Shown: piece by piece, positions 6,062 through 39,202 of the stretch | Position numbering within the stretch: the first letter of the stretch is position 1 | Layout: each line of letters begins with the position of its first letter | NCBI GenBank assembly: GCA_019240525.1 | Contig: JAFAYE010000001.1 | Coordinates: 1,151,300-1,215,299, forward strand | From: Candidatus Eremiobacterota bacterium | GTDB lineage: Bacteria > Vulcanimicrobiota > Vulcanimicrobiia > Vulcanimicrobiales > Vulcanimicrobiaceae | Direction: 5' to 3' | DNA: 64,000 nt | Translations under genes and position numbers: made by a program | The notes under the pieces: model-generated | What the model was told of the DNA's origin: nothing | The model's input: only the letters and a program-made list of their open reading frames with translations | Database searches by the model: none

Positions 6062-8795
6062 TAGCGCGCAAGCTCCGCAGGACGTACTGCAAAATGCCGC
6101 CGTGACGATAGTACTCCGCTTCGTTGGGCGTGTCGATGCGCAGGCGCACGTGGAAGTCGATAGCCCGTCCGCTGGACGGATCGGTGGCAGTCACGCGCAG
6201 GCGCATCCGCGGTTCGAATCCCGAAGTCAAACCGCTGATGTCGTAGATCTCCTCACCTTCGAGTCCGTAGGTCGAGCGGTCCGCGCCATCGAGGTATTCC
6301 AGCGGCAGCACACCCATTCCGATCAAGTTGCTGCGATGAATTCGTTCGAACGATTCCGCGAGCACGGCCTTGATGCCGAGCAGGTAGGGTCCCTTCGCGG
6401 CCCAATCGCGCGACGAACCTGAACCGTATTCCTTGCCGGCAAGCACGATGAGCGGCGTGCCATCCGCCGCATACTTCCGCGACGCGTCGAAAATCGAGAG
6501 CTGCTCGTTGGTTGGAAGATAGCGCGTCACTCCGCCCTCGATTTCAGGAACGAGCGCGTTGCGCAGTCGCACATTGGCGAACGTGCCCCGAACCATGACC
6601 TCGTGATTGCCTCGGCGCGCGCCGTATGAGTTGAAATCGCGCGGCTCGATGCCACGCTCCATCAGGTATTTCCCGGCGGGGCTGTTGCGCGCAATGCTGC
6701 CGGCGGGAGAAATATGATCGGTGGTGACCGAATCGCCGAGCACGGCGATGGCGCGTGCGCCGCGAATATCGTGCAATGCCGTCGGCAGGTCGGGCATTCC
6801 GTCGAAGTAGGGCGGCTGCTTCACGTACTCGGACGCAACGTCCCACGAATAGCGCTCACTTGCCGCCACCCGTAACTCCCGCCAGTTCTCGTCGCCTTCG
6901 AAGACGTCGGCGTATTGACGTTCGAACATCTCTCCACTGATGCAGCCTGCCATCGTCGTCGCGATCGCGTCGTTGCTCGGCCACAGGTCGCGAAGAAAAA
7001 CCGGTTTGCCCGCGCGATCGGAGCCGAGCGGCTCAGTGGTAAGATCGATGTCGATACGTCCGGCAAGCGCATAGGCGACGACCAACGGCGGCGAGGCGAG
7101 GTAGTTCGCGCGAACCTGCGGGTGGATGCGCCCTTCGAAGTTTCGATTTCCCGAAAGCACGGCCGCGACGTTCAAATCACCGTCGGCGACCGCTTCGGCC
7201 ACGTCGCTTGGGAGCGGGCCCGAGTTTCCGATGCACGTCGTGCAGCCATAGCCCACGAGGTTGAACCCAAGCCGATCGAGGTACTCTTGCAGTCCAGCCC
7301 TCGCGAGATAATCCGTCACGACTTTGGAGCCGGGTGCGAGCGAGGTTTTAACCCACGATTTGGTCTGCAGACCGCGCTCGACGGCGTTGCGCGCAAGCAG
7401 TCCCGCGCCGATCAGGACCGATGGATTCGAAGTATTCGTGCAGCTGGTAATGGCCGCGATCACCACCGAGCCGTCATCCACCTGGTCGAGCGTTTGCGCG
7501 ATCGTCGCCGTTCCGCCACCGCCCTCGTCTTCGAACCGCGAAACGGCAGCGTTCTTGCGATCGCGCGCGGCACTCCACCCGTGCTGCGCGTTTTCGAACG
7601 ATTGCTTCACTTCGCCCAACGGTACGCGATCCTGCGGCCGCCGCGGTCCCGCTAGGCTGGGAACGACGGTCGACAAATCGAGGGTCAACGAATCGGCGAA
7701 CTCCGGTTCGGGGCTCGCATCGGTGCGAAAGAGTCCCTGCGCCTTGGTATAAGCTTCGACCAACGCGATGTGTTCGGCGGAACGGCCCGTCAGCCGCAGA
7801 TACTCCAAGGTTCGGTCATCGATCGGAAAGATTGCAACGGTCGATCCGAACTCGGGCGACATGTTGCTGATCGTGGTGCGATCCACGACCGGGAGCGCCG
7901 AGAGACCCTCGCCGTAAAACTCAACGAATTTTCCGACGACGCCTTTACGTCGCAACATCTCCGCTACCGTCAGCACCAGATCGGTTGCCGTAACGCCTTC
8001 GCCGAGCGCGCCATGCAAACAAAATCCAACGACCTCGGGAATGAGCATCGTCACGGGCTGGCCAAGCATCGCCGCCTCGGCTTCAATGCCGCCGACTCCC
8101 CACGCCAGCACGCCCAGCCCATTGACCATCGTCGTATGCGAATCGGTTCCGACGACCGTATCCGGATATGCAAGCGGAGTGCCGGCTGCGTCACCAGGAG
8201 CTTGTGGTAAGGCAAAGACCACGCGTGCAAGGTGTTCGATATTCACCTGATGCACGATGCCGGTCCCGGGCGGCACGACTCGAAGTCCCGAAAGTGCCGA
8301 TTGTCCCCATTTGAGAAACGCGTAACGTTCCCGATTGCGCTCGAACTCGAGATCGGTATTCTTGGCAAGCGCATCGCTCGAGCCGAAATAATCGGCCTGA
8401 ACCGAATGGTCGATAACGAGTTCGACTGGTTGCAGCGGGTTGATGGCCGCGGGGTCGCCGCCCATTGCCGCCATCGCGTCGCGCATCGCCGCCAAATCGA
8501 CGACGGCCGGGACGCCGGTAAAATCTTGGAGCAAGACGCGTGCCGGCGTGAATGCGATTTCGCGTTCGGAACGCGCGCGAGAGGAACGAGCGAGCGCTTC
8601 GATATCGTCGGCCTTGACGCTGCGTCCATCCTCAAAACGCAAGAGATTTTCAAGCAAGATTTTGAGCGAAAACGGCAGCCGTTGCAACGAAGCGGTTCCG
8701 GATTCTTCGAGAACGCCGAGGCGAAAATAGCGGTACGTACGGTCGCCAACGCGTAGCGTATCGAGCGCTTCGAAGCTATTGGGATGTGAATTCAT
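6051..8795 (-). CDS. acnA: Aconitate hydratase A (citrate/isocitrate isomerase)
   Basis: This TCA-cycle [4Fe-4S] enzyme is 914 residues long, close to AcnA/IRP-type aconitases. Cluster ligands are in [10 protein letters not shown] and [24 protein letters not shown], the swivel-domain [13 protein letters not shown] and a C-terminal [11 protein letters not shown] are also intact. The start is set at the ATG at 8795 ([14 protein letters not shown]...); the frame stays open 183 bases further, but that part is an antisense-like Arg/Ser-rich extension inside rnd. It overlaps the upstream rnd stop by 20 bases, so rnd and acnA are probably translated from one message. The 3' end overlaps the convergent propeller gene. 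Confidence 0.95.
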
Positions 8796-37450: not shown

Positions 37451-37933
37451 TCATTGCTTCGCCGGCTGATAGATTCGTAACTCGTCGCCCTCCGGCGACA
37501 CGCGAATCAAGGCAAGCGACGCAGCCGCTCGGTAGAACCGCGCGCGCGGCGGTATCCGCAGGCGGTCGGCACCTCGCCGCACGTAAGCTTCATCGCCCGC
37601 GATCGAAATGCTGCAATCGCCATAGACCAACGTCGCAGGCGGCAGAATCGGGACCGCGCCCGCCGGCAAGTGGCCGCGCAGATATGCCAACGGGCCGTGG
37701 GATTCCGACGTTTGCAACAAACACTCGGGCAACGCCGAGAGCGCCCAGGGCGCGTCGCCCCGCAAAGGTGCCGCGACCTTGCGTATCGGTTCCCCTCCGT
37801 CGCCGGTTTTTGCGGGCACCCGCGCATAGACCGACGCAAGTTTTACGCGGATCAGATCGCGATTCGTCCACCCCGCGACTACCACGGCAACTCCGAGGAC
37901 GATGAGCGTCGATAGCAGCAAGTACTTGATCAT
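37451..37933 (-). CDS. Hypothetical membrane-anchored protein
   Basis: 160 residues, one N-terminal transmembrane helix (about 3-22), then a soluble part that includes two cysteines (LPECLLQ and YGDCSIS) which might form a disulfide. No family recognised. It lies between RF3 and a 169-bp inverted-repeat element that occupies its upstream region. Confidence 0.55.
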   Translation of the reverse strand: MIKYLLLSTLIVLGVAVVVAGWTNRDLIRVKLASVYARVPAKTGDGGEPIRKVAAPLRGDAPWALSALPECLLQTSESHGPLAYLRGHLPAGAVPILPPATLVYGDCSISIAGDEAYVRRGADRLRIPPRARFYRAAASLALIRVSPEGDELRIYQPAKQ

Positions 37934-37942
37934 CCGCGCGAA

Positions 37943-38111
37943 TGATGTCTGATCGGGTCCCTATACCCCACAGCGAGGCCTCCAACTTTTCCGCAAAAGA
38001 CAGGAGGTCGTACTTCTGTTGGTGTTGCGGAAAAGTGGCGGAGCAGGAGCGCGCATGGATGCGCGCGACGAGCGTCCGAGTCGTGGGGCATAGGGACCCG
38101 TTCAGACATCA
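37943..38111. repeat. 169-bp element bounded by 29-bp inverted repeats with internal hairpins
   Basis: The left arm (37943-37971) and right arm (38083-38111) are reverse complements with two mismatches in 29. Inside lie a second perfect 12-bp inverted repeat, ACTTTTCCGCAA (about 37985-37996) with TTGCGGAAAAGT (38025-38036), and a GCGCGCAT/ATGCGCGC hairpin (about 38050-38067). The whole could fold as a long stem carrying two hairpin arms. The right arm overlaps the last codons and stop of the GH130 gene. No transposase or reverse transcriptase is near. A MITE-like mobile element or a structured RNA are both possible. Confidence 0.7.
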
Positions 38112-39202
38112 ACGCGCAGACGCGCGGCACCGATGGAATAGTCGCCCATGCCGTAGTAGACATCGTACGTGCGCTCGCCCAAGTCGGGACGCGGGTCGAT
38201 GCCGCTTGGGAAAACGACGTTGTCGACGATGCCGCGCCGCTCGCGCCGCGATTCGGGCGCCAAAATCGGTTCGGGCGAGCGATAGAGAATGTTGTCGGGC
38301 CGTTCCAGATCGTGTATCACGATGCCGGCGCTGTACCGCAACGCTGGTTTGCGCGGGCGCCCCGGAAGCAAGTCGACGCCGTGAAAGACGGAGAGCCACG
38401 CGTCCATGCCGGCAAGCGAGACCTGCACTGGCGGAGTGCCGGCGCCGATTTTAATCGATCCCCAGCGCGCGTCGGGGGAAAGGACTTGCACGCTCTCGGC
38501 GACGTTGCAGAGGTTGCTGCGATTCTTGAGCACGGGGTTGAGCGGCACGTACGCGATGCGAATCGATTCGCGATCTTCAAAGGGCATTCGCTCGATCATT
38601 GGAATCGAGGCGCGTCCGTCGACACTCGAGAGATGCAGCATTGGGCGATGATAAAAGGCTAAGCTTCGCCGCCCTTTGGGCGAAAGCACGGGTTCGGGAA
38701 AGAACGCGGCGTCCTTGTCGTCGCCGTCGACATTCGCAGTACCGGCGAAATGAACCAAGCCGAGTCGCTCCCAATGGAACGCGTCTTCCGAGATTGCAAG
38801 GGCGATGCGCGGCCCGGAGGGCCCGAATGCCGTATACGCCATCACGTACGCTTTGAGGACCGCAAGATACGTTACGCGAGGGTCTTCGCAGCCGTATCCT
38901 GCAGTGGGGCGCAGTTCGTACGGAGCTTCGGGTTGCAGTGCGAAGCCCAGACGCTCGAGTGACATTCGCCGCTCGGTGCACGATGCGCGGATAGTGCCCA
39001 CACGCGAGATGTTTTCGGGCTCGACGCAGCGGGGATAGAGCACGAGCTCGCCTCCGGGAGCGCGTGTCGCGGCAGGATTCAAGATGCCGCCGGCTTCGGT
39101 GATATCGCCGTTGGGTTCGAGTACCAATCCAAGTCGCTCGACGCGCGCTTCGAGCTGCTCGATGCGCTCGAACGTGCGGGGGATTTTGCGCGGAGATATC
39201 AC
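38102..39202 (-). CDS. Glycoside hydrolase family 130-type phosphorylase
   Basis: 366 residues with the five-bladed propeller signatures of GH130: NPAATRAPGGELVLYPR, GCEDPRVTYL (catalytic Asp near residue 108), FPEPV, WLSVFHGVD and the closing DVYYGMGDYSIGAARL. GH130 enzymes phosphorolyse beta-mannosides. The neighbours give no further substrate clue. The 3' end runs into a large inverted repeat. Confidence 0.85.
   Translation of the reverse strand: MISPRKIPRTFERIEQLEARVERLGLVLEPNGDITEAGGILNPAATRAPGGELVLYPRCVEPENISRVGTIRASCTERRMSLERLGFALQPEAPYELRPTAGYGCEDPRVTYLAVLKAYVMAYTAFGPSGPRIALAISEDAFHWERLGLVHFAGTANVDGDDKDAAFFPEPVLSPKGRRSLAFYHRPMLHLSSVDGRASIPMIERMPFEDRESIRIAYVPLNPVLKNRSNLCNVAESVQVLSPDARWGSIKIGAGTPPVQVSLAGMDAWLSVFHGVDLLPGRPRKPALRYSAGIVIHDLERPDNILYRSPEPILAPESRRERRGIVDNVVFPSGIDPRPDLGERTYDVYYGMGDYSIGAARLRVDV

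Follow-up and report, generated by a model that had tools for sequence, protein, structure and literature searches.

A long hairpin at the end of a GH130 gene

The window, i.e., the whole 64,000-nucleotide stretch of Candidatus Eremiobacterota DNA analysed here, harbours a 169-base hairpin (37943-38111) at the junction of two genes encoded on the minus strand, a GH130 family gene and a 160-aa gene whose start lies 9 nt past the left arm of the hairpin. The features of the locus are as follows:

37451..37933, minus strand: 160-aa gene, which adjoins or overlaps the GH130 gene in relatives without the element
37933..37942, plus strand: outward continuation of the left arm with imperfect pairing, TCCGCGCGAA, which resembles inverted GH130 3' coding sequence
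37943..37971, plus strand: left (5') arm of the outer stem, a copy-specific sequence found nowhere else in the host genome (G000)
37972..38082, plus strand: core, conserved throughout the repeat family and folded as a three-way junction bearing two hairpins
37985..38036, plus strand: core hairpin 1, with a 12-bp stem ACTTTTCCGCAA/TTGCGGAAAAGT (37985-37996 / 38025-38036)
37999-38009, plus strand: tip hairpin on core hairpin 1, GACAGGAGGTC, with GGA at 38003-38005
38043..38074, plus strand: core hairpin 2, module GCAGGAGC-GCGCATGGATGCGC-GCGACGAGCG, with GGA at 38057-38059
38049-38056 / 38059-38066, plus strand: 8-bp GCGCGCAT hairpin
38083..38111, plus strand: right (3') arm of the outer stem, comprising the last two GH130 codons and the TGA stop (38102-38104)
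38112..38120, plus strand: outward continuation of the right arm with imperfect pairing, made of GH130 codons homologous to the RLRVD/RMRIE of relatives
38102..39202, minus strand: GH130 family gene (PF04041, Pfam match), adjoining the insertion

The first-pass annotation had described two 29-nt arms with two mismatches (93% complementary), a right arm covering the last codons and the stop of the GH130 gene, a perfect 12-bp internal repeat and a GCGCGCAT hairpin, all of which are present at these coordinates. The inverted repeat is real and not a product of chance. With up to two mismatches and a spacing of up to 300 nt, it is the longest of the window (29), compared with 16-23 in 20 first-order Markov versions of the window and 18 once the element is removed. 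Perfect runs within the arms are shorter than 12 nt; once the imperfect pairing further out is included, the arms reach about 39 nt (37933-37971 / 38083-38120). The RNA fold check recommended at the outset gives -106 kcal/mol for the plus strand (z -12.0) and -97.6 kcal/mol for the minus strand (z -11.2), both against 200 dinucleotide shuffles.

The GH130 gene and its neighbour abut or overlap in 13 congeners, none of which carries the element, and no copy occurs at this gene pair in more distant relatives; thus, the window copy is a lineage-specific gain by insertion. Because the copy is absent from the pair in 13/13 congeners, the earlier idea of an element regulating GH130 or the next gene is unsupported. 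On the GH130 side, the outer arm bases coincide with host codons (RLRVD, corresponding to RMRIE and similar in relatives), and the far side of the outer arm reads as an inverted copy of these codons. The simplest reading is that the arms of the window copy would have grown into host sequence.

A dispersed repeat family across Candidatus Eremiobacterota

The search for further copies had a divided outcome: the host genome returned a single copy, with no second one in the window, as already remarked, or elsewhere in the 2.8-Mb assembly (97% complete), whereas the relatives returned many. Specifically, the 169-bp query against 60 relatives yields many matches in the same genus and family, and most of the long ones end at the arm boundaries or close to them (query 30-138). 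A covariance model built from 24 copies and applied to 149 genomes of the phylum (cut-off E <= 0.001) matches the core (window 37972-38082) in 65 of them, with 1-21 copies per positive genome and often 5-21, and its matches extend to a second family within the order and to a further family within the class. All the named records bearing the core pattern belong to Candidatus Eremiobacterota; viral carriage was considered and discarded, the four viral pattern matches having failed confirmation by the covariance model. Rfam 15 contains no match to the element at gathering or relaxed thresholds, and no publication on this repeat family was found in the literature accessible without subscription. 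The element belongs to a dispersed repeat family, not listed before, that occurs across Candidatus Eremiobacterota.

Placement and empty sites

Among the 81 copies classifiable with the gene calls of a simple script, 42 have convergent, 33 unidirectional, and 6 divergent neighbours, and copies usually lie within 20 nt of a stop codon. At co-directional sites, both neighbours are transcribed from the minus strand of the element in 24 cases and from the plus strand in 9, i.e., copies are often antisense to the operon. A placement at gene 3' ends has also been published for REPs (PMC3733652). One gene carries a terminal copy in three different genera (L030 10087, L100 1501, L117 1908).

Presence and absence at the same site are documented beyond the window. 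The L023 site is filled in G015, while the 94%-identical site in G017 is empty and lacks both arms, so insertion into a pre-existing palindrome was rejected; the genomes of genus g7 are contiguous across this site. Conversely, the "empty" sites of L117 and L104 in G073 retain 15-18 nt of one arm and may therefore be deletions. Nine empty/filled comparisons reveal no consistent target-site duplication, and terminal repeats conserved among copies were not found, with the exception of a few small groups (G013; G014/G010).

A conserved and covarying core

All full copies share the same three-way-junction core, whose two hairpins carry CA(N)GGA(N)G at their tips. Hairpin 1 bears a small tip hairpin, and the sides of hairpin 2 are conserved as GYAGGAGC and GCGACGARCG; the G(C/T)AG preceding hairpin 2 and the CGTC of its complement, candidates for REP-type tags, are nearly invariant and lie inside the element, away from its ends. 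GGA occupies each of the two tips in 90/97 copies and is also seen in both tips in distant families. In the 97 aligned copies, 97.0% of the paired cells are complementary, compared with 64.5% after shuffling; both-sided changes occur at 39/43 pairs, and the covariation score is 0.814 versus 0.199 for shuffled data (0/500 shuffles). The alignment was fitted to the covariance model, so that the pairing counts lean towards the structure, and the raw extractions pair likewise. Shifting the partner by 1-3 columns destroys the covariation. G-U pairs make up about 1.7% of the core cells.

Variant cores carry a second hairpin-2 module in place of hairpin 1, or a single module. Modular variants are found in G014, G010, G003, and G016 (L183-L210), and several have common arms such as GGAACCTCTGATTAATCCGATGT. 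In genus g52 (L248, L249, L255, and others), the stem of hairpin 2 is A/T-rich (GGCAAAAAAACATGGACGTTTTTTTGCC) and the GGA tip is kept.

Mismatches within the element show a strand asymmetry. Read on the plus strand, the arms contain 90 G.T and 34 A.C mismatches (p = 5e-7, an optimistic value since orthologous copies are not independent) and the core 49 and 6, respectively; some copies at contig starts of G073, including L129, are possible assembly fold-backs and were excluded from these counts. The G.T excess is still seen (29:10) at copies whose two neighbours are transcribed from the minus strand only, and the fold of the plus strand thus matters, apparently outside the mRNA of the neighbouring genes. 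This behaviour favours a plus single strand that is independent of mRNA.

These features bear on the strongest of the alternatives, a structured non-coding RNA or 3'-UTR element spread by duplication, whose plus-strand transcript would bind a protein (candidate CsrA) through the two GGA-tipped hairpins, with the arms as a closing stem under pairing selection. CsrA favours GGA in hairpin loops, and CsrA-binding RNAs of the CsrB/RsmZ type consist of repeated hairpins with GGA in the loop. The covariation, the GGA tips retained in distant families, and the preference for pairing on the plus strand are all in keeping with this possibility, as is the presence of CsrA (PF02599) in the genome of the window and in most copy-bearing genomes. 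However, no conserved promoter or flank accompanies the copies, their frequent antisense orientation does not abolish the strand bias, G-U pairs are unusually rare, and Rfam offers no counterpart. Moreover, G026 (97% complete) and G086, from one genus, carry copies with no CsrA detected. In contrast to CsrB/RsmZ, the element has only two GGA hairpins and a unique long stem. An RNA of this kind is a minority prospect; the long-term pairing of the core at individual sites can equally reflect selection on an RNA.

Copy-specific arms

The conservation of the outer stem is the reverse of that of the core. In every full copy extracted, the interior is conserved and the arms are mutually complementary but mostly unrelated between copies. 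The outer stem spans about 18-46 bp (median 30), a range that excludes one copy not extended by the script and a handful of longer stems that are composite or suspect. A search of eight genomes with the arms of 17 copies places each arm at its own site alone, leaving aside orthologues and two single-arm matches elsewhere (contigs G023:C70 and G073:C215). Paralogues with 97-100% identical cores have an arm similarity at background level, while orthologues of comparable core identity retain most of their arms. Arms can nevertheless travel with the core, since four G013 copies combine cores 96-100% identical and similar inner arms with unrelated flanks, and some G014/G010 copies have arm sequence in common. 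No donor for the arms of young-looking copies was found in their own genome, and an origin by copying from elsewhere in the genome was rejected for want of a source; patching from nearby flanks was likewise dismissed, the longest shared word being 8.0 versus 7.7 in controls.

In nine orthologous pairs with a flank identity of about 88-96%, 29 arm pairs have changed on both sides and are still Watson-Crick, and 22 have changed on one side; many of the double changes are transversions, with no wobble intermediate. Furthermore, in four orthologous pairs (L105/L124, L103/L123, L147/L149, L036/L159) the core of one member is flipped with respect to the flanks. All sequences derive from short-read MAGs or drafts of uncertain quality, and part of the flips and of the contig-end palindromes (such as L129) could stem from assembly errors. 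Homogenised arms, inverted spacers, and newly created stems are known products of template switching (PMC8604942, PMC8794818), and both-sided stem changes and core inversions are as expected from such switching during replication.

Several further arrangements accompany the copies. L036 (G005), L042 (G011), and L159 (G007) share a gene neighbourhood with a copy in each of these three congeners, and their arms are unrelated and their core orientation differs, so that the neighbourhood is either a hot spot or a place of fast arm turnover. The palindromic repeat GTCATCCTGAGCCTGTCGAAGGA is inverted around or near copies (L026 3154-3402 and L027 in G013; L041; L160 about 7870-8139) and gives rise in G013 to composite palindromes with arms of about 70 nt. 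Some copies form oppositely oriented pairs separated by tens to about 150 nt, in which the second member is often degenerate (L154 1790-2105, L042 2705-3133, L040 2901-3266, L157 1997-2247, L136 1740-2114, and G090 contigs C153, C71, and C88). Lastly, on G073 contigs C118, C194, C253, C45, and C235, copies lie 220-300 nt from the contig start, and the L129 contig is a near-perfect palindrome of its own flank that looks like an assembly fold-back.

Nature of the element

The reading that best accommodates these data is that the family is probably a dispersed, non-autonomous REP/MITE-like mobile hairpin that acts from one strand as single-stranded DNA. The first-pass annotation had wavered between a MITE-like element and a structured RNA: the recurrence of the interior in relatives, its covariation, and the site empty in congeners bear out the general idea, while a classical MITE does not agree with copy-specific arms around a conserved interior. 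The part recognised would presumably be the conserved core of about 110 nt on one strand (the plus strand of the window), with its two GGA-tipped hairpins, and the outer arms would form the long stem that presents it once the strand is single. A putative enzyme would act in trans on the core. The sequence of the arms would be free, and their pairing may be preserved by a replication machinery that switches template between them; such switching would copy a change of one arm into the other, sometimes invert the core, and possibly draw neighbouring host sequence into the arms. Tolerance of new copies would be greatest immediately after stop codons, the places at which a long hairpin is likely least costly. 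A more tentative and rather improbable extension is that only the folded core is inherited and that each new copy gains a new long stem through fold-back synthesis of DNA on insertion or shortly afterwards, in which case the arms would record local template switching rather than the ends of the element.

The search for a mobiliser was negative within its scope. Y1/HUH transposase genes (PF01797) are absent from the 18 genomes of the genus and from G023 and G013, as well as from the copy-bearing genera g1, g7, and g19; the 30 Y1 loci retrieved from elsewhere in the phylum have no credible flanking copy (best E 0.57), and no shared neighbour protein was found beside copies. This bears directly on the possibility of a classical RAYT-mobilised REP/REPIN, in which the GYAGGAGC-hairpin-GCGACGARCG module would be a GTAG-type REP. 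The hairpin-2 module may resemble Pseudomonas REPs, and the palindromic modules occur one or two per element. As with REPs and REPINs (PMC3733652, PMC3116915), these are short dispersed non-coding palindromes, mostly past gene 3' ends or between convergent genes, with modules sometimes within larger palindromes; REP dimers inside palindromes are reported in A. variabilis and H. neapolitanus (PMC3733652), and the CGTC-tagged REP families have no dedicated transposase either (PMC3733652, PMC3116915). Conversely, the present family has a conserved 110-nt three-way-junction core with two different hairpins, carried on a copy-specific stem of some 30 bp; its genus lacks Y1/RAYT, and the genomes contain few copies each. 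RAYT mobilisation is unlikely.

Similarly, MITEs and Correia-type elements are small and non-autonomous, have inverted terminal arms, and are patchy among close relatives, but the defining marks of MITEs are target duplications and terminal repeats that conserve those of a parent transposon, whereas here the termini are variable and neither parent nor consistent duplication was found. The element works like a REP/MITE-type repeat; since searches for a cognate transposase and for conserved ends gave nothing, it is not classed as either. Hairpins maintained by template switching (PMC8794818, PMC8604942) are alike in their both-sided stem changes, spacer inversion, and growth of inverted repeats from adjacent sequence; they are known as a mutational process, while here a mobile family with a conserved core is involved.

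A non-mobile transcription terminator or mRNA 3'-end stabiliser placed by selection would suit the position of copies, which lie at the 3' ends of genes and between convergent ones, but is quite improbable, given that, on direct reading, neither arm of the window copy is followed by a T-run, the site is empty in 13 congeners, a conserved 110-nt core is superfluous for a terminator, and near-identical cores sit at unrelated sites. The one-off accidental repeat envisaged by the first-pass annotation, to which the single copy in the host genome might point, is practically refuted by the copies, conserved structure, and covariation in relatives and by the Markov comparison.

Implications

With the mobile single-stranded hairpin as the preferred reading, the phylum has a family of elements in which the usual conservation of mobile DNA is reversed: the middle is conserved and the ends are free but paired. 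Should the arms be made anew at insertion, the family would move by a mechanism for which REPs and MITEs offer no described precedent. The hundreds of hairpins, including orthologous pairs, are a natural data set for the maintenance of stems by template switching in bacteria, and they call for caution in that even strong covariation is by itself no proof of an RNA function where DNA replication can rewrite both arms together.
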